DNA from: Calditrichota bacterium
GTDB taxonomy: Bacteria > CLD3
Assembly (NCBI GenBank): GCA_008501735.1
Contig: QQUF01000049.1
Location: 1 to 64,000 of the forward strand
Length of the DNA stretch: 64,000 bases
Direction of reading: 5' to 3'
Part shown: positions 3,900-52,064 of the stretch, piece after piece
Numbering within the stretch: position 1 is the first letter of the stretch
Layout of the letters: each line of letters begins with the position of its first letter
The notes under the pieces: model-generated
The model's database searches: none
Told to the model about the DNA's origin: nothing
What the model saw: only the letters and a program-made list of their open reading frames with translations
Made by a program: the position numbers and the translations under genes

Positions 3900-4931
<1,032 letters not shown>

Positions 4932-5097
4932 TTACTTTAAAAATTTGCGACGAAAATTAACCTTTTTTAAGACTTTTGTCAAGTAATGAGTTTTTTACTA
5001 AATTGCTGCCCATTTTTCATTTGATAGAGTTTAAAAAAATGATAACTTTGGAACTCTTTGAAAATTAACAACCTAAAACTTGAGGACTGAATTTTAA

Positions 5098-7782
5098 ATG
5101 TCAGATTTTAAGGATAAATCAAATAATATTGTAGCTGGAATTGTTTTTACGGTCAGCTTAATTCTCTACTTTGCGACTGTCGCTCCGACTGTTTCTTTTT
5201 GGGATTGTGGTGAGTTCATTGCTTGTTCTTACACAATGGGAGTTCCGCATCCTCCGGGAGCACCTCTTTTTCTTTTAATCGGAAGAGTTTTTACACTCTT
5301 ACCTGATTTTATCGGCGACATTGCCTTTCGTGTGAATTTAATCTCTGTTTTCTCAAGTGCCTTTTGTGTGCTTTTCGCTTACTTAATCACTGTTCGTTTT
5401 ATCAAATTTTGGAAAGGTGAGCCTAAAAGTTTTGAAGACAAATTAATCGTTTTTGGTTCCTCTGCTGTTGGTGCATTGACTTTTGCTGTTACTGATTCAT
5501 TTTGGTTTAACGCCGTTGAAGCAGAAGTTTATGCGATTTCGATGTTCTTTACAGCGATTCTTTTCTGGCTAATTCTTGTTTGGGAAGAGCAGGCAAGACA
5601 CGATATGGAAAACGAAGCGATTCTCCTTCTCATTGCTTACATAATTGGACTTTCGTCAGGAGTTCACCTTCTCAACATTCTTGCAATTCCGACAATCGGT
5701 TTAATTATTTACTTCCAAAAAGAGAAAAAGAAAGAAGTTGATTACGGCAAAATCATTGGGATTTTAGCGATTTCCTTTGCCATACTTGGATTTACGAACT
5801 TCCTGTTTGTAAGTGGAATTCCAAAGCTTTACGAAGTAACAGAAGGTCCTTTGGCAATTTTGGTTGTTCTTGCACTTAGTGCTTTCTTAGGTTACAAGTT
5901 CCAAAAAGAAGGAAAACTTACTCTCTCAGTGGCTGCTTACTCCGTTTTTCTTTTGATCCTTGGTTTCACAAGTTACGAGATGATTCTCATTCGTTCTGGC
6001 TTGAATCCAATCATTGACGAAAACAATCCTGAAACAGCTAAACAATTCATTAGCTATATGAAACGTGAGCAGTACGGAACAGAAAGTCAATTCCTCACAA
6101 TCTTCGACAGAAAAGCTCCTTTCTGGTCTTACCAAATTGAAAAAATGTATATTCGTTACTTCTCTTGGCAGTTCATCGGAAAAACAACTTCTAGTTTCGG
6201 AGAAGTTTTAGCTGGTTATCGACCTGGCGAACCAGGTTACGGAATGACATTTTTTGGAATTCCTTTTGCAGTTGGTTTAATCGGTGCTTACCATCATTTT
6301 AAAAAAGACTGGAAACGTGCTTTAGCAAACCTCGTTGCGTTCTTCATTATGGGAATTGCGATTCTTCTTTATTTAAACCAACCTGACCCACAACCTCGTG
6401 AAAGAGATTACTCTTATGTTGGTTCTTTCTTTGCCTTTGCACTTTGGATTGGTGTCGGACTTTCAGCGATTTTGGAAGAACTTGCCGAAAAAATAAAAGG
6501 AAATAAAACGCCTGTTTTTATCGGATTTTTACTTGTCGCAACTCTTGCACTTCCTGTTTGGATGGGTTATAAAAATTTCCACGAACACAACAGAAATGGA
6601 AATTATGTTGCTTGGGATTACTCTTACAACATTTTACAATCTTGTGAAAAAGATGCGATAATTTTTACAAATGGTGATAACGATACCTTCCCACTTTGGT
6701 ATTTGCAAGAAGTCGAAGGAATCCGCAAAGATATTAAAGTTGTAAACCTTAGCCTACTAAACACAGATTGGTACATCAAACAACTTCGCGACAATGAACC
6801 AAAATTAAACATTCCTTTCTCTGACGGTCAAATTGAACAATTCCGTCCTTCGATTTGGGAGACTCAAGAACTTTCTCTCCCAATCCCTGAACACTTGCGA
6901 CGTGAACACAACTTGAAAGAAAAAGAAATGAAGTTCACTGTTAAACCGACTTTTCAAGGTCGTGGAATTCGTGTTCAAGATTTAATGATTATCCAACTCC
7001 TTCGCCACAATATGGCTAAAAGACCTGTTTACTTTGCAGTGACAGTTGCAGAAAGTAACAAAATTGGTTTGAGCCAATTTATGCGAATGGACGGATTAGC
7101 TTTTAAAATTCTTCCTTACCAAATTCAACAAGTTAACCCACTTGGTATTGATGCAAAAATTTTGGAAAACAAAATCACAAATGAATTCCAATACAGAGAA
7201 ATCAATAATCCAAATGTTTACTACGATGATAATGTTAAAGGCTTGTTACAAAACTATCGTTCGGCATTTTTACGTTTAATTTATCACTACCGCGAAAAAA
7301 ATGATAACGACAAAGTTCTTTCACTCTTACAAAAAATGGAAGAAATTTTACCTGAAACAGTAGTACCGATTAGACACAAAGACATTGCAATGAGACTTGC
7401 ACTTTTCTTCCACGAAGCAGGAGATGCAACTTCGTTTAATGACAAACTGAACTCAATTTTAAACGACAGACAACTTGCAGAAAGAGAAAAACTTGAAGTC
7501 GCACAAGCACTTCTTTCAACAACGAAAAAATATTCGCCAGAGTCAGAAGTGATAATCGAAAACTTGATGAATTCTTTGTTCTCTGGACAAGATCAATCTA
7601 AAGCCTATACTTTTATGATTGCCTTTTATGAAAACCAAGAAAAGTATCAAGAAGCCGCAAACTTGTTAGAAAAATGGTTAACAATTTCACCGACCGATAG
7701 AAATGCTCAAAGAAAGTTGGATTTCTTAAAAGCAAAACTTTCGACAAGTTCAGCACCTTCGGACACAAACAAGGCAGAATAA
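5098..7782 (+). CDS. DUF2723 family membrane protein (protein O-mannosyltransferase-like glycosyltransferase)
   Basis: YFATVAPTVSFWDCGEFIACSYTMGVPHPPGAPLFLLIGR is the family signature; many TM segments; TPR-like C-terminus. Confidence 0.9.
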   Translation: MSDFKDKSNNIVAGIVFTVSLILYFATVAPTVSFWDCGEFIACSYTMGVPHPPGAPLFLLIGRVFTLLPDFIGDIAFRVNLISVFSSAFCVLFAYLITVRFIKFWKGEPKSFEDKLIVFGSSAVGALTFAVTDSFWFNAVEAEVYAISMFFTAILFWLILVWEEQARHDMENEAILLLIAYIIGLSSGVHLLNILAIPTIGLIIYFQKEKKKEVDYGKIIGILAISFAILGFTNFLFVSGIPKLYEVTEGPLAILVVLALSAFLGYKFQKEGKLTLSVAAYSVFLLILGFTSYEMILIRSGLNPIIDENNPETAKQFISYMKREQYGTESQFLTIFDRKAPFWSYQIEKMYIRYFSWQFIGKTTSSFGEVLAGYRPGEPGYGMTFFGIPFAVGLIGAYHHFKKDWKRALANLVAFFIMGIAILLYLNQPDPQPRERDYSYVGSFFAFALWIGVGLSAILEELAEKIKGNKTPVFIGFLLVATLALPVWMGYKNFHEHNRNGNYVAWDYSYNILQSCEKDAIIFTNGDNDTFPLWYLQEVEGIRKDIKVVNLSLLNTDWYIKQLRDNEPKLNIPFSDGQIEQFRPSIWETQELSLPIPEHLRREHNLKEKEMKFTVKPTFQGRGIRVQDLMIIQLLRHNMAKRPVYFAVTVAESNKIGLSQFMRMDGLAFKILPYQIQQVNPLGIDAKILENKITNEFQYREINNPNVYYDDNVKGLLQNYRSAFLRLIYHYREKNDNDKVLSLLQKMEEILPETVVPIRHKDIAMRLALFFHEAGDATSFNDKLNSILNDRQLAEREKLEVAQALLSTTKKYSPESEVIIENLMNSLFSGQDQSKAYTFMIAFYENQEKYQEAANLLEKWLTISPTDRNAQRKLDFLKAKLSTSSAPSDTNKAE

Positions 7783-7783
7783 A

Positions 7784-8806
7784 ATGCAATCCGCTTACCC
7801 GCTCGTAAGCGTCATAATTCCGCACTACAACGGAGAAGAAATTTTAAGGGATTGTCTTCAATCCCTTAAAAAATGCACTTATCCGAACTTTGAAATAATT
7901 GTCGTTGACAACGGTTCAACTGACGAAAGTACGCTTTTAGTCGAAACCGAATTTCCTTCTGTAAAACTTCATAAATCAACAAAAAATCTTGGCTATTCAG
8001 GCGGCTGTAATTTTGGTTTCCGTAATTCAAAAGGCAAATACGTTGTCTTTTTAAATAACGACACAACCCAAGAAAACGACTGGCTCGAAAGACTTGTAGA
8101 ATTTGCAGAAAAAAATCCCAAAGTTGCTGCACTTCACCCAAAATTACTTTACATCAAAGACAAAACACTTTTCGATTACTCAGGAGCTGCTGGTGGTGAA
8201 CTGGATTTTCTTGGTTTCCCTTTTGCAAGAGGCAGAGTTTTTTTCACAGTCGAGAAAGATGAAAAACAGTACGACGAACCAAGACAAATTTTTTGGGCTT
8301 CTGGAACGGCTTGTTTCCTTCGCCGAGAAGTTTTAAATGAAGTCGGTTTACTTGACGAAGATTTTTTTATGCATATGGAGGAAATCGACCTTTGTTGGCG
8401 AATAAATTCTGCGGATTACGAAGTTTGGTCAGTTCCAAGTGCAGTTGTTTACCACTACTCAGGAGCCTCACTTGGAGCAGAGAGTTGGTTCAAAGTTTAC
8501 CTAAATTACCGAAACAATATTTTAATGCTTCTCAAAAATTATTCAGGGATTTCACTTTTAAAATATTTACCGATTAGGATAATTTTGGACTTTGTAGCAC
8601 TTGTGCAGGCGATTCTAAAACTTGAATTTTGGCGAGCAAAAGGAATTTCAAAGGCTTACTTTTGGCTTCTGACAAAGTTTCGATTTGCACTAAAGAAAAG
8701 AAAATTTGCTCAAAGAGACCGTAAGAAAGCAGACTCTGAACTTCCATTTTACCGAAAAAGTATTGTTTGGCAGTATTTTGTAAAAGGAAAGAAAACATTT
8801 CGTTAG
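7784..8806 (+). CDS. Glycosyltransferase family 2 protein
   Basis: VSVIIPHYNGEEILRDCLQSL..VVDNGSTDES..LNNDT..HMEEIDLCWR. Confidence 0.93.
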   Translation: MQSAYPLVSVIIPHYNGEEILRDCLQSLKKCTYPNFEIIVVDNGSTDESTLLVETEFPSVKLHKSTKNLGYSGGCNFGFRNSKGKYVVFLNNDTTQENDWLERLVEFAEKNPKVAALHPKLLYIKDKTLFDYSGAAGGELDFLGFPFARGRVFFTVEKDEKQYDEPRQIFWASGTACFLRREVLNEVGLLDEDFFMHMEEIDLCWRINSADYEVWSVPSAVVYHYSGASLGAESWFKVYLNYRNNILMLLKNYSGISLLKYLPIRIILDFVALVQAILKLEFWRAKGISKAYFWLLTKFRFALKKRKFAQRDRKKADSELPFYRKSIVWQYFVKGKKTFR

Positions 8807-8847
8807 TAGGGAACAAAAATTTTTGTTCCCTACTTTTTGTTCCCTAC
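8806..8847. terminator. Bidirectional terminator between convergent GT2 and alr, plus an extra direct copy of one arm
   Basis: GTAGGGAACAAAAA/TTTTTGTTCCCTAC perfect palindrome at 8806-8833, followed by a second TTTTTGTTCCCTAC at 8834-8847 that contains the alr stop codon. Confidence 0.8.
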
Positions 8848-9953
8848 TTCTTGTAAACTCTCGGAACTCTTCTCGCTAACCAACAAGTAATTTCGTAAGG
8901 AATTGTTCCAGCAAGGTCTGCGATTTCTTGGATTGAAATTTCCTCGTCACCCTGTTTTCCGTAAAGAACAACTTCGTCGCCGATTTGCACTTCCGAATCC
9001 AAACCAACATCAACCATAAATTGGTCCATACAGATTGTTCCTACAACAGGAAATCTTTTTCCACGAATCAAGACTTCACTTTTGTTTGAAAGAAGCCTTG
9101 TGTAACCATCTCCGTAACCGACTGGAATTGTCGCGATTTTCGTTTTTTGTTTTGTATGAAAAGTCAAACCGTAGCTGATTCCTTCGCCTTCGTCAACCTC
9201 TTTTAAGAACACAACTTTTGACTTGAAAGCCATCACAGGTTTTAGGTCTAATGTTTCCGATTTCTCTTGAACAGGTGAAATTCCGTAAAGCATCAAACCT
9301 GTCCGCACAAGATTAAAAACTGAATTTTGATTGTTCACCAAACCGCCACTGTTTGCGATGTGATAAAAATTAGGTTCTACTCCAACCTCTTCGGCATCTT
9401 TTTTAATTTGCTCAAACCGTTCGACTTGGAGTTTTGTGTAATCGGAATCAACTTCTTCTGAAACAGCCAAGTGTGAATAAATTCCAACTAATTCAATATT
9501 CTTCAAGGTTTTAATTTTGGAAATTACAAATTTTGCTTTAGTGTGATTGATTCCGATTCGGTTCATTCCTGTGTCGAACTTGAGATGAATTTTTGCTTTT
9601 GAACCGAACTTCTCAGCTTGTCTGTTAACCGAGTAAGCAAGTCCGAGTGATGAAATTGTGATTTCAAGGTCGTTTTTGAGGAACTGCCGAACTTGGCTAA
9701 AAAGAACTCCGCCAAGTACTAAAATCGGAATTGTAAAACCTCTTCTCCTTAACAAAAGTCCTTCTTCAAGAAATCCGACTCCTAAGTAATTTGTTCCTTC
9801 TTCGACTAAGGTTTTTGAGACTTGAATAATTCCGTGTCCGTAAGCATTGGCTTTGACAATAGAAATTACACCTTTTCCATTTGTTGCCTTTTTAGCAAGT
9901 TGGAAATTTTGACGAAGTGCATTTAAATCAATTTCGGCAAAAGTAATTCTCAT
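8844..9953 (-). CDS. alr: Alanine racemase
   Basis: VKANAYGHG PLP-lysine motif, GVGFLEEGLLLR, PVVGTICMDQFMVDVG. Confidence 0.96.
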   Translation of the reverse strand: MRITFAEIDLNALRQNFQLAKKATNGKGVISIVKANAYGHGIIQVSKTLVEEGTNYLGVGFLEEGLLLRRRGFTIPILVLGGVLFSQVRQFLKNDLEITISSLGLAYSVNRQAEKFGSKAKIHLKFDTGMNRIGINHTKAKFVISKIKTLKNIELVGIYSHLAVSEEVDSDYTKLQVERFEQIKKDAEEVGVEPNFYHIANSGGLVNNQNSVFNLVRTGLMLYGISPVQEKSETLDLKPVMAFKSKVVFLKEVDEGEGISYGLTFHTKQKTKIATIPVGYGDGYTRLLSNKSEVLIRGKRFPVVGTICMDQFMVDVGLDSEVQIGDEVVLYGKQGDEEISIQEIADLAGTIPYEITCWLARRVPRVYKK

Positions 9954-43088: not shown

Positions 43089-45596
43089 TTACTTCAAAAA
43101 TGTCATTTTTTTAGTATCTGAAAAGTTCGGAGTAGTAAGTTGGTAAAAGTAATTTCCACTTGAAACTGACTTTCCAAAGTTGTCTGTTCCGTCCCAAACA
43201 ATTGTTCCTTTCCGTTCAGTCAAAGCGAACTCTTTCACCTCTTCACCAAGAATGTTAAAAATTACCAACTTACCTTTCTCGTTACTTTTCAATTCGTAAT
43301 TTATCGAAGTTGTTGGGTTAAAAGGGTTCGGGTGATTTTGCGAAAGCGAGAATTTTTGAGGTAAAATTTCTTTTTCAGGAATATCAGTTACACCGTTTGC
43401 GATAAGTGGAATGCTTCCAACATAACCATTTCCATTTAAGATTAAGTTTGTCTGCATTAAACCCGAGAAATAATTTTCAAAATAAATATCTATTGAATCT
43501 TGAGAATTTGGAGAAATTATTATCGGTAATTTTGTTGTATCAACCTTGATTAAATCTGTATATGGAAATTCTCCCGAAATGTTATAAAGAAACAAGTCAC
43601 AAAGGGAAGAATCTACTGTGATAACTAAAGTAAAAGTATCAATTACTCCGACAGGAATATCTCCAAAATCAATCAAACTCGGTAAAATAGGGTTCAAGTT
43701 GCAACTTTCTTCGTTAAACTGATATTCATTATTGACAGTTAAATTAGTGCCTGAAATAACTTGGTGAATTCCACTGTGCCATTCTATAACTAAGCTATCA
43801 ATTTGAGTTTCATTTCTGAGTCCAAAATGTGCAACAGAACTACCTTGTGAACGACCTGAACCTCCATCAATTTCTCGGATTTGAACTGAATTCTGAGTGT
43901 AAAGTTTTAACCTTGTTCCGGTTGCAGCCTTATTACTTTGACTTCCTTCTAACCTAACTTGTAAATAATTATTAGAACTACAATTATCATTACGATAAAA
44001 AAAATATTTCCCTAATCCACCAATGAAAGCGTCTAAATCTCCGTCTTTATCAAAATCACACCAAGTAACTGTTTTGGTAGAAGTGTCCGAACTTGAAATA
44101 TTAATTTTTTGACTTACTTCTTTAAAAACGTTGGACGAACTTGCACCTTTGTTATAAAAAAATTCCATATCACTTCCGATATTAACTACCCAAACATCCT
44201 GCCAACCATCATTGTCAAAATCTCCTGTTGCACTTTCCCAGCTTTGGGAAAAGCCATTAGAAACATTTGTGAGAAATGAAACATCGTCGAAATAATTTTG
44301 TTTGTTTTCAAATAGAATATTTTCATATGAGCCACTAGCAAAATCAGCACTTGCACAAAAAATATCCATATTTGCATCGTTATTGTAATCAAAGAAATCT
44401 AAATCCCAAGTATTTCCGACAATGCTAACTCCCCAAGTATTAGTCACATCTGAAAATGTATTATTGCCATTATTTTGATAAAGAATATTACCTTGCCCTC
44501 CGTCGTGTCCGACATAAATATCAACAAATCCATCATTATTAAAATCCGTTGTAGAAACAGCGTGTCCGAATTGATTACTTTGACAACCACTTGAGGTGGC
44601 TAATTCTGTAAAAGTAGAATCACCATTATTATGATAGTAGTAATTATCTGCGACCTCATTAGCGATATAAAAATCAACAAACCCATCATTGTCAAAATCA
44701 TTCACAGAAATTCCACGTGAACTACTTGAAGTTCCACTTGTTCCTCCTGCATTATTAATAATATTTACACATTTTGGTTGAACAGTCGGTGCAATTGTGC
44801 CTGAAAGATTGTGATAGAAAGTATTTGTTCCTGCATTTAGAACATAAAGGTCAAGCCAGCCATCATTGTCAAAATCTAAAAAAACTGCTCCCCAACCATT
44901 TCCATTGTCTCCAACTCCATACTCAGAAGTTCCACTCGTAAAAGTGCCATTTCCATTATTTAAATAAAGTTGATTGTTTGCGTTAGAATTTACAACATAA
45001 AGGTCTTCCCAACCGTCATTATTAATATCTCCCCAACAAGCTCCTTGTGTATCCCAAGAAGGTTGAAATCCTATTCCTAAAGTTGACAGAATATCAGTAA
45101 ACTGTGGAAAGCTGTAAATTGTAAAAAATTCTGAGATTATGTTATTCGATGAATTTGGGTCAGTGGAAGTAGTGTTTGTAATTGTTATTTCAATTTCAAA
45201 AACTTCATTATCACAATTATTTTGTGGAATCCAAGGAATTGGAAAAACAATCAGCATTGTTGTATCCGGGACAAAATTTCCCACAAAGACATTGTCCAAA
45301 TAAACCGAACTACTATCAGATTTAATTTCAGCTAAGACATTCACAGATTCTGAATTTGGCGAGAAACTTTTAATGTAACAACTTAGCGAAATCGTATCTC
45401 CATAAGTGTAAACCAACCCCGAATTATTCGAAGGAGAAGAAATTGAAATGACTCCAACATCTCCAACAACCAAAGTATCAGTTTGGTTAATTTGCAAATC
45501 GTCATTTGCAAACACTGATGAAATTAGAACTAAGTTCAAAATTATGAAAATGGTTTTTTTAACAATCTTAACATTATTTTTTAGCTCTTTAAACAT
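43089..45596 (-). CDS. FG-GAP/VCBS repeat and ASPIC/UnbV domain protein with T9SS type A C-terminal domain
   Basis: WGDINNDGWEDLYVVN.., TDFNNDGFVDIYVGHD..; LQVRLEGSQSNKAATGTRLKLY..REIDGGSGRSQGSSVAHFGL; C-term FSLSQNHPNPFNPTTSINYELKS. Confidence 0.92.
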   Translation of the reverse strand: MFKELKNNVKIVKKTIFIILNLVLISSVFANDDLQINQTDTLVVGDVGVISISSPSNNSGLVYTYGDTISLSCYIKSFSPNSESVNVLAEIKSDSSSVYLDNVFVGNFVPDTTMLIVFPIPWIPQNNCDNEVFEIEITITNTTSTDPNSSNNIISEFFTIYSFPQFTDILSTLGIGFQPSWDTQGACWGDINNDGWEDLYVVNSNANNQLYLNNGNGTFTSGTSEYGVGDNGNGWGAVFLDFDNDGWLDLYVLNAGTNTFYHNLSGTIAPTVQPKCVNIINNAGGTSGTSSSSRGISVNDFDNDGFVDFYIANEVADNYYYHNNGDSTFTELATSSGCQSNQFGHAVSTTDFNNDGFVDIYVGHDGGQGNILYQNNGNNTFSDVTNTWGVSIVGNTWDLDFFDYNNDANMDIFCASADFASGSYENILFENKQNYFDDVSFLTNVSNGFSQSWESATGDFDNDGWQDVWVVNIGSDMEFFYNKGASSSNVFKEVSQKINISSSDTSTKTVTWCDFDKDGDLDAFIGGLGKYFFYRNDNCSSNNYLQVRLEGSQSNKAATGTRLKLYTQNSVQIREIDGGSGRSQGSSVAHFGLRNETQIDSLVIEWHSGIHQVISGTNLTVNNEYQFNEESCNLNPILPSLIDFGDIPVGVIDTFTLVITVDSSLCDLFLYNISGEFPYTDLIKVDTTKLPIIISPNSQDSIDIYFENYFSGLMQTNLILNGNGYVGSIPLIANGVTDIPEKEILPQKFSLSQNHPNPFNPTTSINYELKSNEKGKLVIFNILGEEVKEFALTERKGTIVWDGTDNFGKSVSSGNYFYQLTTPNFSDTKKMTFLK

Positions 45597-45621
45597 ATCT
45601 TACCTCTCAAATTTTTTAACT

Positions 45622-47634
45622 TTATTTTAGCAAAGTCATCTTTTTAGTTTCTGAAAAATTATTACCGACTAATTGGTAAAAATAATTTCCACTCGAAACA
45701 GGTTTTCCAAGATTATCTGTTCCGTCCCAAACAATTGTTCCTTTACTTTCAGTCAAAATATACTCTTTCACTTCTTCACCGAGAATGTTCAAAATCACTA
45801 ACTTACTATTTTTGTAATTTGAAATTCCCAAATCGTAATTTATTGAAGTCGAAGGGTTGAATGGGTTCGGGTAGTTTTGCGAAAGTGAGAAGTCTTTTTT
45901 TACAAGGGTTTTATTTTCATCAACATCTCCCAAATTTAGCGTATAAATTGTTCCTGTTCCGTTTTGATGCTTGTAAAAATGATAATCGGTTTGAACTGCA
46001 AATGGCAAAATAAAAGGATAGTTATAAAACCCTGCGAAATCATCTGTCTCAAAGGCAACTTCGACAAAACCGGATTCCATTCTTGCTTGTGGAATCATCG
46101 CATATTTTTCATCTGTTCCAAGAGAGTTAGTAATATTTTCAAATTCAGGGTAAATTGATGGGGAAGAATAAAATCCCCAATAATTTCCACCGTCAACTGA
46201 CATTGTGTGAAAAATATCTCCGTGAACTTGTGCATTTGCCGAATCTCCATTTGGCATATTTCCCCAATCAATATCGCCTGCTGGATAACCTGTAAAAATA
46301 ACGTGCATTGCTCCATTGTCATCAAATCCAAGTTGAGGAGTAGAAATTATTTGCTGAAATCGACCACCTAAATCCGCTCCACTTGGTGCAATTGTCGGAT
46401 TATTCCAAGAAGAACCGTCTTCAAAAACTGTTCCTCCGATTTTTCCAAAAGTTCCGCTGTCAGTGTAATCGTCATAGGCAAAAATTTGATTTTTACTTCC
46501 TGTTGTTCCATTTTGGTAAACTAATCTGTAAGCATTTGGAAAATAACTTCCCGCAGAAGTCGTTTTGTGTTCAACGTAAGTGTAATGCGGATTTCCTTGC
46601 AAATCCATTGTAACGTCAAAGTGATTAAAAGCTCGCCACTCAAAATCTTCGGGGGCTTGACTGTTCACAAAATTCAAAGGAGTGTCATCGCTTACGTTGT
46701 CAAAACTCCAAGTCGCTCCGTTGTCAAGACTTTCAAATTTGTAAAGAGCGTTTGAAGCTAAAGTTGTGTCTTGAAAAGAAGAACCAGAAGCGTGAAAATA
46801 AACTAAAATTAAACGGTCTGCTCCATCAGAAACAAAAACTTTCGCATCTGCATCTGTCAAAACATTAACTCCTGCAAGACTGTCCATTAGTTGGTAAGGA
46901 GCAAAATTTGTAAGAAGTGGGTCGCTTAACGAAGTGTGATAAAGTGAGTTTGGAGAAGTCGCTTGGTCGGCAACATTAAGAGTTCCAAAAACGTGCAATT
47001 TATCATTTGAACCGACAGCACAAGAGGGCCAAATTGGTTGTCCATCTCCAATTGGTAAATTTGGAACAAGCGGAGTGTTAGCTTTTTGCCAAAGTCCTTG
47101 TCCCGAAAGTAAATCAATATTTACAACTGTCCTAAAATCATCATTGAAATTCGGGTCTTGCAAATGACTCACAACTACTGCTGAACCACCAAGAAGATTT
47201 ACTGAGTTATTACGGTAGAAATCTAAACTTGGAAAACCACCTCTAAAACTTTCAATTCTTTCCCAACCAGGTGTAATTGTCTGAGTTCCTGTTCCATCAT
47301 CTTTTCCCCAAATTTGCCCATCGTAGGAAAACGAATAAAATGAACCGCGATATGGGTTTGTTGGTGGATTTGAAGTGAAGTATTCTGCACTTATAAAAAC
47401 AACGTGGTAATTTCCGTTCTCATCAATCGCCATTCTTTTGCCAATTGCTCCGTTTGCTTGATAATCCCAAAAACCTGTTCCAATTACGACTCCGGGAGAA
47501 TTGTACTGTGCAAAAACTCCACTTGCACAAAAACTAAATGCAAAAATCAATCCTAAAATTCTCACTAACATTTTTACCTCCAAAAAATTGTTAATCAATT
47601 TAAAAAGAAATAAACCTTTCAACAAATGTACCAA
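45622..47634 (-). CDS. T9SS type A sorting domain-containing secreted protein (sialidase/BNR-like fold possible)
   Basis: Signal peptide; C-term FSLSQNYPNPFNPSTSINYDLGISNYKNSKLVILNILGEEVKEYIL. Confidence 0.88.
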   Translation of the reverse strand: MVHLLKGLFLFKLINNFLEVKMLVRILGLIFAFSFCASGVFAQYNSPGVVIGTGFWDYQANGAIGKRMAIDENGNYHVVFISAEYFTSNPPTNPYRGSFYSFSYDGQIWGKDDGTGTQTITPGWERIESFRGGFPSLDFYRNNSVNLLGGSAVVVSHLQDPNFNDDFRTVVNIDLLSGQGLWQKANTPLVPNLPIGDGQPIWPSCAVGSNDKLHVFGTLNVADQATSPNSLYHTSLSDPLLTNFAPYQLMDSLAGVNVLTDADAKVFVSDGADRLILVYFHASGSSFQDTTLASNALYKFESLDNGATWSFDNVSDDTPLNFVNSQAPEDFEWRAFNHFDVTMDLQGNPHYTYVEHKTTSAGSYFPNAYRLVYQNGTTGSKNQIFAYDDYTDSGTFGKIGGTVFEDGSSWNNPTIAPSGADLGGRFQQIISTPQLGFDDNGAMHVIFTGYPAGDIDWGNMPNGDSANAQVHGDIFHTMSVDGGNYWGFYSSPSIYPEFENITNSLGTDEKYAMIPQARMESGFVEVAFETDDFAGFYNYPFILPFAVQTDYHFYKHQNGTGTIYTLNLGDVDENKTLVKKDFSLSQNYPNPFNPSTSINYDLGISNYKNSKLVILNILGEEVKEYILTESKGTIVWDGTDNLGKPVSSGNYFYQLVGNNFSETKKMTLLK

Positions 47635-47816: not shown

Positions 47817-48503
47817 ATGTCAAAGAAAGCAGTAATCTTTTTCTCGCGTAGTTTCAAAACAGAATCTCAAGCCAAAAACTTTTGTCCTAAAAGCCAAAAA
47901 CTCTCCGAAAAAATCACAAACAGAATTTCAAAAAATGTTCTCCAAAGCCTTAAAAATCTTGAGTTTGAGAAATTCTGGTTTTCAGATGTTTTGATTTCAG
48001 AAAGCCTTTTGGAAAAATTCAACTTCCAAGAAAACATTTTACAAGAAGGAAAAGACCTTCGCGAAAAAATCCAAAATGCTTTCACCCTGCTCTTTAAAAA
48101 AGGCTTTGAAGAAATTCTCATTCTCGGCAACGACACTCTTTTAAACTCTTCCGAAATCAGAAAAGCATTCGCAGAGCAAAAAGACGTTCTCGGAAAATCT
48201 GCCGACGGAGGTTTCTACCTTCTAAAAATCAAAAAAGGCTCTGCAAACTTTCAAGTTCTCTCAGCAGAAAATTGGCGTGAAGGAAAACTCAAACTTGGCA
48301 ATTTCGATTTCAAATTTCTAAAAACCAAATTTGACTTTGACACACTAAAAGACTTTCTCAATTTTTTCCCTGACCTAAAATTTGTAAAAACAATCCTGAA
48401 TGAAATTCTCAAACCGATAATTTTTTCTTTAGAAAAAACAACTAACAGATTTTCTAAAACCTCAAGAATTTTCTCCAACAAATCCCCTCCAATCTTCGCT
48501 TAA
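47817..48503 (+). CDS. DUF2064 / TIGR04282-like glycosyltransferase
   Basis: KAVIFFSRSFKTESQAKNF..EILILGNDTLLNSSEIRKAF..DVLGKSADGGFYLLKIKKG. Confidence 0.75.
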   Translation: MSKKAVIFFSRSFKTESQAKNFCPKSQKLSEKITNRISKNVLQSLKNLEFEKFWFSDVLISESLLEKFNFQENILQEGKDLREKIQNAFTLLFKKGFEEILILGNDTLLNSSEIRKAFAEQKDVLGKSADGGFYLLKIKKGSANFQVLSAENWREGKLKLGNFDFKFLKTKFDFDTLKDFLNFFPDLKFVKTILNEILKPIIFSLEKTTNRFSKTSRIFSNKSPPIFA

Positions 48504-48505
48504 AA

Positions 48506-48579
48506 AACATCCCTCTTAATCTCCCTTCAAAGGGGGACTTTCCAGTTTCTCCCTTTGAAGGGAGATTAAGAGGGATGTT
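48506..48579. repeat. 29-bp perfect inverted repeat with 16-nt loop between the two genes of the arsenic-like locus
   Basis: AACATCCCTCTTAATCTCCCTTCAAAGGG / CCCTTTGAAGGGAGATTAAGAGGGATGTT. Confidence 0.95.
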
Positions 48580-48682: not shown

Positions 48683-51169
48683 ATGATTTCTTTTGAACCA
48701 AAATCAATTTTTTACACACCAAATTACGCACAAAAGCAATACGATTCAGGTTACTTTTTCATTGACTACGAAGCTCCAAATTGGATTTTGACTGACGAAA
48801 AAGGTGCAAAAATTACAAACTTACTCAATGGCAGAAATTCACTCGAAGACGTTGCTCGTGAGTACAGCAAAACTTTCGGATTTGACCTCCAAAAATCTTG
48901 GCTTCACGTGAACCACTTCATCAAAAGAGGAATTCATCACAAATTCGTTTTCGACACTCCGAAAAATTACGCTCCTTATCCGGGAAGAAAAGAATTCCTA
49001 AACAGTGCAAATCTCAAAGAAATGTGGGTTCACACGAACAATTCTTGCAACCTCGCTTGCGCTCATTGTTTGGTGAATTCTTCGCCGCAAGAACACAAAG
49101 GACTTCCAACCAACAAAGTTTTGAGCGTGATTCGTGAAGGTCTTGAACTCGGTGTGAAAAAAATGTATTTCACAGGAGGCGAGCCGTTTTTCAGAAAAGA
49201 TATTTTTGAATTAATTGACACTGCTCTTGAAAAATCGGAACTCACAATCCTTTCAAACGGAATTCTTTTCAAAGGCGAAACTCTTCAAAAACTCAAAAAT
49301 TACGACAAATCAAAACTCACTTTACAAATTTCTTTGGACGGTTCAAAACCTTCTTTCAATGATCCAATTCGTGGAAAAGGAAGTTTTGAAAACATCATCA
49401 AAGGAATCAAAAATTTAATTGAAATCGGTTATGAGCCGACAATCACAACAACTGTTACAAAACAAAATTTGCCCGATTTAGACAACGTGGTTAGGCTTCT
49501 TTCCGAACTAAAAGTAAAAAGACTTCACTTGCTTTGGCTTCACCGAAAAGGTCGTGCAGTTGGTGCAAGTTACGAAGTTGAAAATTACGAAATTATTCAA
49601 AAACTGCGTGAAGTCAAACCTCTTGCCGATTCGCTTGGAGTTTCGATTGACAATTTTGAAGAATTTGAGCTAAGAATCAACGGGCAGAAAAATGTTAAAA
49701 ATGACTTGAGCGTTGCAGGAGTCGAGTCGCTTTGCGTTTACTCTGACGGAAGAGTTTATCCTTCAGCAGCTTTCGTGCAAGTCGAAGAACTTCTTTGCGG
49801 AGACGTAAACGAAACTTCATTAAAAGAAATTTTGGAAACTTCCGAAATTGTTCAAGAATTTCTGAGTGCAACAGTTCAGAAAAAAGCTGTTTCACACTCT
49901 GATTCGATGAAATTTCTTTCAGGAGGCGGAGACATTGAACACAGTTTTTACTACTCAAAAGCAATCACAGGAAAAGGAAATATTCTCGGAGCTGACCCTT
50001 ACGACGAAGTTTACAACTACTTGATGGACGAAGCGATTAAAAAACTTTACGTTGAAAATCGCAGAAAATTGAACACAAAAGCAGGTTTTGACGCTCCAAC
50101 TATTTTCTACTCAATGGGCGAACTTGGTGTAACTTGCGGCGACGAAGAAGAAAATGTTCACCTTTTCGGCGAATTCGGAGTCAATACTTTGCACTCAAAT
50201 TGTGTGCTTGACCTCAGTTACGATAAGTCTCACGAGAAAGTCCAAGAATTTTACGGCGAAGCAATGGACGAGCCACAACCTGAACTTTGTTGCCCGACAA
50301 GTTACGACCCAACTGATACAGACCACATTCCACGAGAAGTTTTGGAAAGATTTTACGGTTGCGGTTCACCGATGAGCATTGCAGGAGTTACCGAAGGCGA
50401 AACTGTTGTTGACTTAGGTTCTGGAGCAGGAATTGACTGTTTTATCGCCGCGAAAAAAGTTGGTGCTGACGGAAGAGTTATCGGAGTCGATATGACTGCA
50501 GAAAGCCTCGAACAAGCGAGAATGCACAACAAACTCGTAACTGAAAATCTTGGTTTTGACATTTGTGATTTCCGCGAAGGTTTTATGGAAGAAGTTCCTG
50601 TTAAGGACAAAGAAGTCGATTTAATCACTTCAAACTGCGTGATAAATCTTTCACCTGACAAGAAAAAAGTTTTTGCGGAAATGTGGCGAATCCTTAAAGA
50701 CCACGGGAGAATCGTAATTTCTGACATTGTTTCGGAAGTCGAAGTTCCGCCTTACTTACAAGTAAATCCTGTTCTTTGGGGTGAATGTTTGTCGGGAGCT
50801 TTGACGGAGAGAGATTTTGTTTCGATGCTCGAAGAAGCAGGTTTTTATGGACTCACGACTCTCAAAAAAACTTACTGGAAATCCGTTGAAGGCTATAAAT
50901 TTTTCTCAGTAACTGTTTCAGGATTCAAGTTTGAGAAAAAAGAAGGTTGTGTTTTTATCGGACAAAAAGCGATTTACCAAGGACCCTTCAAGTCAATTAT
51001 GGACGAAGAAGGACATTTTTTCCCAAGAGGTGAAGCGGTAGAAATTTGCACAGACACTGCACAAAAATTACAAAACTTACCTTACAAAGGAGCGTTCCAA
51101 ATCATCGAAGGCGACAAAATGCCCGACGAATTTGTGAACGACTGTTGTGTTGATGGAGCTTGTTGCTGA
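48683..51169 (+). CDS. Fusion: PqqD-like domain + radical SAM + ArsM/AS3MT-type methyltransferase with C-terminal CC-CC tail
   Basis: ORF 48575..51169, start corrected to ATG 48683 preceded by GAAGGATAACA. WILTDEKGAKITNLLNGRNSLEDVAREYS (PqqD-like); NLKEMWVHTNNSCNLACAHCLVNS (rSAM CxxxCxxC); VQEFYG..ELCC..RFYGCG..VVDLGSGAGIDCFIAAKKVG..SNCVINLSPDK..LWGECLSGAL (ArsM); end NDCCVDGACC. Confidence 0.9.
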   Translation: MISFEPKSIFYTPNYAQKQYDSGYFFIDYEAPNWILTDEKGAKITNLLNGRNSLEDVAREYSKTFGFDLQKSWLHVNHFIKRGIHHKFVFDTPKNYAPYPGRKEFLNSANLKEMWVHTNNSCNLACAHCLVNSSPQEHKGLPTNKVLSVIREGLELGVKKMYFTGGEPFFRKDIFELIDTALEKSELTILSNGILFKGETLQKLKNYDKSKLTLQISLDGSKPSFNDPIRGKGSFENIIKGIKNLIEIGYEPTITTTVTKQNLPDLDNVVRLLSELKVKRLHLLWLHRKGRAVGASYEVENYEIIQKLREVKPLADSLGVSIDNFEEFELRINGQKNVKNDLSVAGVESLCVYSDGRVYPSAAFVQVEELLCGDVNETSLKEILETSEIVQEFLSATVQKKAVSHSDSMKFLSGGGDIEHSFYYSKAITGKGNILGADPYDEVYNYLMDEAIKKLYVENRRKLNTKAGFDAPTIFYSMGELGVTCGDEEENVHLFGEFGVNTLHSNCVLDLSYDKSHEKVQEFYGEAMDEPQPELCCPTSYDPTDTDHIPREVLERFYGCGSPMSIAGVTEGETVVDLGSGAGIDCFIAAKKVGADGRVIGVDMTAESLEQARMHNKLVTENLGFDICDFREGFMEEVPVKDKEVDLITSNCVINLSPDKKKVFAEMWRILKDHGRIVISDIVSEVEVPPYLQVNPVLWGECLSGALTERDFVSMLEEAGFYGLTTLKKTYWKSVEGYKFFSVTVSGFKFEKKEGCVFIGQKAIYQGPFKSIMDEEGHFFPRGEAVEICTDTAQKLQNLPYKGAFQIIEGDKMPDEFVNDCCVDGACC

Positions 51170-51229: not shown

Positions 51230-51712
51230 TCAAAGAATCGGGAAATCCGTTCCTGAAATTGGTCTGCCTAACAATCGGCAAAGAGTAACGATTTGACCTT
51301 GATGTTGGTAGATGTGCGTGAAAGTTCTTAGGAAAACTCGTGCAGGAATGAGATTTCTCTCGTTGTTTCCCCAAGTAATCATTTTCCGTTCAGTGTTAAG
51401 TTCTTCGGTAGAAGCATTTTTGAGGTAATTTTCTGTCGTTGTAAAAACTTGCTCTCGGTAATTTTTCAAGGATTCGATTGTTGTGAAATCAGAGGCGTTG
51501 TCGTCAACTTTCATCAAACCTTCAACAACTCCAATCCAATATTCTTCCGCACCAATTGTATGGTGGAATTGTTGCAAAATATTAGGATAACCAAATCCTT
51601 CAAACTCGCGATTTAATTCTTCACTGTTAAATTTGTCGCAATGTTCAAGCAACTTTTGCAAAGTGTTGTGTCCGCGAGTGTGCAAGTCTTGTAAAGTTTC
51701 TGTTGTGTACAT
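51230..51712 (-). CDS. DinB family protein
   Basis: Four-helix pattern with HHTIGAEEYWIG and HIYQHQGQI metal-ligand histidines. Confidence 0.85.
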   Translation of the reverse strand: MYTTETLQDLHTRGHNTLQKLLEHCDKFNSEELNREFEGFGYPNILQQFHHTIGAEEYWIGVVEGLMKVDDNASDFTTIESLKNYREQVFTTTENYLKNASTEELNTERKMITWGNNERNLIPARVFLRTFTHIYQHQGQIVTLCRLLGRPISGTDFPIL

Positions 51713-51728
51713 TTTTTGCCTTTAGTTT

Positions 51729-52064
51729 TTACTTTGAGTTTGCGATTTTTTCATCAAGTTCTTGAATTTGTGAAATTATCAAAACAAGTGATTCGCCTGC
51801 TTCGGTCAAAGTGTATTCGGTTCTTGGTGGAACTTCTGCAAAAATATGTTTTTCAAGCAAACCGTAATCGGTCAACCTCCGAAGCCTTTCGGAAAGTACT
51901 TTCGTTGAAATTCCCTCAATGCTTCTTTCAAGAATTCCAGGTCTTTTAATTCCTAGTCGAACTGCTTCTAAAACTGAAACAGACCATTTGCAACCTATTA
52001 CTTTTTCAAGCCTTTCGTAAGACTTTCTTGAGCTTTTTAATTTTTTTTCGTCCATAATAATCAA
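51729..52064 (-). CDS. HxlR family winged-helix transcriptional regulator
   Basis: VIGCKWSVSVLEAVRLGIKRPGILERSIEGISTKVLSERLRRLTDYGLLEKHIFAEVPPRTEYTLTEAG. Confidence 0.93.
   Translation of the reverse strand: MIIMDEKKLKSSRKSYERLEKVIGCKWSVSVLEAVRLGIKRPGILERSIEGISTKVLSERLRRLTDYGLLEKHIFAEVPPRTEYTLTEAGESLVLIISQIQELDEKIANSK

Follow-up and report, generated by a model that had tools for sequence, protein, structure and literature searches.

The locus and its reading frame

The window, by which we mean the whole stretch of 64,000 nucleotides analysed (Calditrichota bacterium, contig QQUF01000049.1), carries on its forward strand one intact, uninterrupted frame of 828 amino acids (Table 1). The encoded protein runs from a PqqD-like N-terminus through a radical SAM (rSAM) core and a degenerate SPASM region into a four-cysteine ArsM and ends in a CCVDGACC tail. 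The initial annotation had proposed a single chain with PqqD-like, rSAM and ArsM parts in this order, closed by CC-x4-CC. All motifs it named are found in the frame, among them CNLACAHC and TGGEPFF.

Translation probably begins at the ATG at 48683, because a ribosome-binding-like AGAAGGATAACA lies in front of it and the alternative in-frame ATG at 48575 borders an inverted repeat. The repeat itself, a perfect one with 25-bp arms, appears from its sequence to be a terminator or a repeat element. On the reverse strand, 43089-47634 encodes two large proteins whose C-termini are sorting sequences of the NPFNPST type, in the style of type IX secretion. Convergent with the fusion, at 51230-52064 on the reverse strand, are genes for a DinB-family protein and an HxlR-type regulator, which are probably unrelated to it.

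We rejected a selenoprotein reading of the fusion. Stops within the matches in the inspected copies are terminal stops, apart from one TGA at a non-cysteine position in a copy at a contig end (L023); hence no selenocysteine is claimed. An AlphaFold prediction of the whole chain from five sequences reached a mean pLDDT of 52, which is too poor for a fold search and does not inform the sites.

Table 1. Coordinates of the fusion gene, its parts and the elements upstream (positions in the window).
Feature	Position	Strand	Basis
828-aa fusion protein, PqqD-like/radical SAM/SPASM-like/ArsM/CC tail	48683..51169	+	architecture common to 22 aligned members
PqqD-like (RRE-type) N-terminal domain, aa ~1-95	48683..48970	+	PF05402 in 10/22 homologues; predicted fold
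Radical SAM core, aa ~113-300, CNLACAHC (C122/C126/C129) and TGGEP	49019..49582	+	PF04055 7e-25; cysteines invariant in 22 members
SPASM-like region, aa ~345-460	49715..50062	+	PF13186 in 17/22 members; C351 kept; 404/407/413 lost in window
H-S-x-C-V-L motif (C507), end of rSAM module	50192..50218	+	C507 invariant in 22 members
Predicted ArsM (As(III) SAM methyltransferase) domain, cysteines C536/C537, C560, C652, C702	50219..51082	+	HMMs, PDB matches, alignment
C-terminal CCVDGACC tail, vicinal cysteine pairs, aa 821-828	51143..51166	+	cysteine table
Divergent member of TIGR04282 'arsenosugar biosynthesis glycosyltransferase' family, just upstream of fusion	47817..48503	+	TIGR04282 E=1.5e-14, 54 bits vs cut-off 134; PF09837 7e-10
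Perfect 25-bp inverted repeat, arms 48510-48534 and 48551-48575, between glycosyltransferase-like gene and fusion	48510..48575	.	sequence

A conserved family with several branches

The initial annotation was right about the fusion, the four-cysteine ArsM and the analogy to ArsM plus ArsS. The fusion is moreover a conserved family rather than an isolated case. Whole-genome searches covered 295 Nitrospirota and 297 Acidobacteriota genomes. Together with the window's small phylum, these hold the main-branch architecture in 21 genomes, a count that includes a few copies interrupted by gaps or by the end of a contig. Identical architecture in 21 genomes means that the fusion is not an accident of assembly. 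Full-length homologues are 86% identical in the window's own family (L003), 50% in Acidobacteriota (L004) and 46% in Nitrospirota (L005).

Our alignment holds 22 members, 18 from the main branch and four from a second one. Main-branch members have a C-terminal extension with the CC tail and, where aligned, share 43-86% identity with the window protein. Proteins of the second branch (Nitrospirota, ~770-800 aa) are extended at the N-terminus by a MAKGCC-type segment, and most of the C-terminal extension is missing from them. Invariant in all 22 are C122/C126/C129, C351, C507, C537 (counted as the first arsenic-site cysteine of ArsM), C560, C652, C702 and C828. The final CC is kept in all 18 main-branch members.

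A third branch, from Acidobacteriota, carries a DUF5714 domain. Its members at L041:1489-4626 and L042:1246-4401 are rSAM-ArsM proteins of ~1050 aa with this domain at the C-terminus (PF18978 confirmed in L041, 6.5e-56) and have lost the first ArsM cysteine pair. One Nitrospirota genome (G131; contigs C2, C18, C47) encodes three full-length copies of the fusion. Two further loci (L115, ~6790-9379; L116, ~4867-7043) may represent another kind of ArsM-rSAM pair: the gene right after ArsM codes for a radical SAM protein that is shorter and of a different sort.

The PqqD-like domain and the radical SAM half

Assignment of the first ~95 residues to PqqD rests on the homologues: PF05402 matched 10 of the 22 (best 4.1e-12), and the window protein alone stays below significance in a single-sequence scan. 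With low confidence, the domain is predicted as a beta-hairpin and three helices, which would fit PqqD. Such domains are usual for peptide substrates. One could argue, then, that the rSAM/PqqD part works on a ribosomal peptide or protein, guided by the RRE, and that the ArsM half adds arsenic or methyl. In favour are the confirmed PqqD-like domain, the similarity of the rSAM half to StsB, the mycofactocin rSAM and other SPASM peptide maturases, and the order of PqqD-like, rSAM and SPASM-like parts, which maturases of the StsB, AlbA and SkfB types share. Yet we consider peptide maturation very unlikely. The partner genes are glycosyltransferases, and no conserved small ORF (RiPP precursor) adjoins the fusion in either the window or its 86%-identical relative. 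Unlike the maturases, the fusion ends in ArsM, and its family is often without the SPASM cysteines, a loss unusual for enzymes of that kind. Nothing we saw in the PqqD/RRE part points to a peptide as its substrate.

The core belongs to the radical SAM superfamily by its CX3CX2C and GGEP motifs and by its match to PF04055 (aa 120-272). The best rSAM-only NCBIfam model for the window protein is the Rv1681 family (NF049973, 1.7e-43), which matches only the rSAM core (aa 113-280) at 149 bits against a cut-off of 380. The H-S-x-C-V-L motif closing the module is also the C-terminus of the stand-alone rSAM protein in genomes where the two halves are separate genes (a copy ends YHCSCVLTV).

The SPASM-like region matches PF13186 weakly in the window protein. 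A missing YPC cysteine had been noted here from the outset, and the loss is in fact larger: the CxxC...C positions 404/407/413 are S/D/S, so the window protein lacks the cysteines of a SPASM auxiliary cluster. These cysteines are also degraded in L003. They are complete in 8/18 main-branch members, L004 and L005 among them, and in 4/4 second-branch members, and lost or partial elsewhere. Since they are lost in several branches and the rSAM cysteines are kept, the auxiliary cluster looks dispensable, and this pattern suggests that both active centres are under constraint. The degraded cysteines in the window and L003 could also mean that the rSAM half is catalytically idle in this lineage and that plain ArsM detoxification is left. 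That is highly improbable, given that CX3CX2C, GGEP, C351 and C507 are invariant and that the pair from the window's lineage is 86% identical over the full length.

The ArsM half

The cysteine contexts of ArsM, which the initial annotation had picked out, are LCC (C536/C537), RFYGCG (C560), SNCVINLS (C652) and GECLSGA (C702). ArsM and AS3MT have four conserved cysteines, at 44, 72, 174 and 224 in CmArsM. In the domain search the best models for this half are arsenite methyltransferases, all below their curated cut-offs: NF008823 (1.7e-68, 231 bits, cut-off 263) and the arsinothricin ArsM NF040538 (3e-65, 221 bits, cut-off 500). Pfam places a methyltransferase at aa 571-720. Crystallised ArsM chains (5evj/4kw7) match at ~1e-38 with the YGCG, SNCV and GEC cysteines aligned. 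With a SAM-binding fold, similarity to ArsM/AS3MT and all four cysteines, the C-terminal half reads as a four-cysteine ArsM and is predicted to methylate As(III).

Scores below the cut-offs, and the occurrence of ArsM-like domains in selenoproteins of unknown substrate, allow for a methyltransferase half that acts on antimony, selenium, mercury or a small molecule, in which case the pathway names mislead. We regard such a substrate as quite unlikely, since none of the 22 members departs from the four arsenic-site cysteines and since the gene surroundings are also those of ArsS, an enzyme with published arsenic chemistry.

Relation to ArsS

We asked whether the rSAM half is ArsS itself (TIGR04167), and this was ruled out: it scores 64.6 bits against a cut-off of 300 and falls into a separate clade. 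Compared by profile, the rSAM and SPASM-like regions match ArsS with 98.5% probability, which is expected within the superfamily. In the rSAM tree, which was made by a quick method and has long branches, ArsS stands outside a single group (SH-aLRT 94) that takes in the fusions, the split genes and the other branches. The phylogeny thus makes the rSAM half a lineage of its own. The ArsM tree unites the main-branch halves in one clade (99). Split, stand-alone and second-branch ArsM come close to it, and ArsS-linked ArsM lies farther away; in G006 the ArsM found near ArsS is only a distant relative (28%). Two rows labelled ArsS in the rSAM tree (L090, L094) are placed astray, probably because they are a different neighbouring rSAM, mislabelled; L090 is identical to its neighbour row L110.

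Neighbouring genes and distribution

The TIGR04282-like gene just upstream of the fusion in the window has counterparts directly upstream in G373 and G498 and none at the sister locus L003. The window genome does have clear members of TIGR04282 and TIGR04283, but on other contigs. In an Acidobacteriota genome (G309) the order on one strand is DUF547-TIGR04283-[fusion]-TIGR04282. PiT, VTT and FAD oxidoreductase genes stand beside the fusion in L004 and L065, joined in L004 by DUF547.

In three Nitrospirota genomes (G014, G024, G033) the rSAM and ArsM halves are separate genes, each beside one glycosyltransferase. The rSAM gene overlaps TIGR04282 (E ~4e-60 in two complete copies), and ArsM adjoins VTT and TIGR04283 (E=8e-81). 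At two loci with a stand-alone rSAM gene (L050, L054), TIGR04282 is followed by a glycerophosphodiester phosphodiesterase gene.

Bona fide ArsS loci of the same phyla show the arrangements ArsM-PiT-ArsS, DUF547-PiT-ArsS and ArsS-TIGR04283-TIGR04282, along with VTT and FAD oxidoreductase, and these companions are also found beside fusion and split genes. The names of TIGR04282 and TIGR04283 are those of their curators and probably rest on association with ArsS.

Co-occurrence was counted at curated cut-offs in Nitrospirota and Acidobacteriota, comparing 22 genomes with a fusion or split pair with 9 controls that have ArsS and 29 that have neither. TIGR04283 is present in 20/22, 8/9 and 3/29 of these, respectively, and TIGR04282 in 18/22, 8/9 and 3/29; because the genomes are related, the Fisher values (7e-9 for 20/22 versus 3/29; 3e-7 for 18/22 versus 3/29) overstate independence and are only indicative. 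Hence the arsenosugar-type gene set accompanies the family, and its two glycosyltransferases are physically linked to it in G309 and the split genomes.

ArsS itself is distributed in a complementary way. It occurs in 1/21 main-fusion, 0/3 split and 9/38 control genomes. In the window's phylum all seven fusion-less genomes have ArsS and neither of the two fusion-bearing ones does.

Comparison with known systems

Like the ArsM and ArsS pair (NF038099, TIGR04167), the fusion combines ArsM with a radical SAM enzyme and keeps company with PiT, DUF547, VTT, TIGR04282, TIGR04283 and FAD oxidoreductase, as the initial annotation's analogy would have it. It differs in being one polypeptide whose rSAM is of another lineage with a PqqD-like N-terminus, and in that ArsS is mostly absent. 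The ArsM and ArsL pair of arsinothricin synthesis likewise joins ArsM to an rSAM, but as separate genes. ArsM is fused to another domain in ArsRM (PMC10190100), in Naegleria ArsM-SelD (PMC5552862) and in the selenoproteins ArsM-AhpD and ArsM-DUF2284 (NF041537, NF041536), all of which, by their descriptions, are without a radical SAM domain. No model with the rSAM-ArsM architecture is among the best 25 NCBIfam matches listed, and no earlier report of such a fusion came up in the open-access literature, to which our search was confined.

Proposed function

ArsS adenosylates arsenic in oxo-arsenosugar synthesis (PMC12159101), and ArsL transfers a 3-amino-3-carboxypropyl group in arsinothricin synthesis (PMC8552651). 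We think it probable that the fusion is a single-chain replacement of ArsM plus ArsS and carries out the entry steps of an arsenosugar-type pathway. The architecture, the invariant residues, the family distribution, the shared neighbourhood and the complementary distribution of ArsS support this reading. What goes beyond them is inferred: that arsenic is acted on, which radical is transferred, in what order the steps run and how the intermediate is handed over. Several points weigh against the reading. The rSAM half is not ArsS, the TIGR04282-like neighbour in the window is divergent and scores under the cut-off, L003 is without this neighbour, a PqqD-like domain would rather go with a peptide, and neither the Fisher values from related genomes nor the curators' family names carry full weight.

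The ArsM half would bind As(III) at its cysteines and methylate it with SAM to DMAs(III). This would be handed to the rSAM half, perhaps by way of the cysteine-pair tail and C351/C507, which is a guess from conservation. There the [4Fe-4S] cluster would cleave another SAM to a 5'-deoxyadenosyl radical, which would form the C-As bond and yield dimethylarsinoyl-deoxyadenosine. The TIGR04282 and TIGR04283 glycosyltransferases would act in later steps.

The rSAM half might instead move another SAM fragment to arsenic, such as 3-amino-3-carboxypropyl, as ArsL does, so that the product would be an arsenic amino acid. ArsM plus rSAM is the logic of arsinothricin too, a single cluster seems to be enough for ArsL as well (PMC8552651), and NF040538 is among the best matches of the ArsM half. 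Its score lies far under the cut-off, however, and the neighbours (arsenosugar-type glycosyltransferases, DUF547, PiT and VTT) favour an ArsS-like reaction. Nor did we recognise an ArsQ-like transporter among the genes next to the fusion when looking through the inspected loci. We therefore hold an ArsL-like transfer to be unlikely.

In the literature cited here, ArsS and ArsL are the only two radical SAM enzymes named as forming C-As bonds. We see about an even chance that the family adds a further such lineage, apart from ArsS and in one chain with ArsM. On this view Nitrospirota, Acidobacteriota and the window's phylum would use it to produce adenosylated arsenicals (or some new organoarsenical), and arsenic would pass between two SAM-dependent sites within the protein. 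The fusion lineage seems to have taken over from ArsS, and arsenosugar-type chemistry would then extend well beyond cyanobacteria. One chain with both activities would also be a convenient test object for the passing on of a toxic methylarsenic intermediate.

At all four second-branch loci inspected (L055, L068, L069, L070) the gene after the fusion encodes a B12-binding radical SAM protein, which suggests a further modification step. Two loci from the window's phylum, L100 and L101, have a PiT phosphate transporter gene next to ArsS or a short way off, and ArsM or DUF547 adjacent. Several fusions, too, have PiT as a neighbour, a hint at uptake of arsenate or phosphate.
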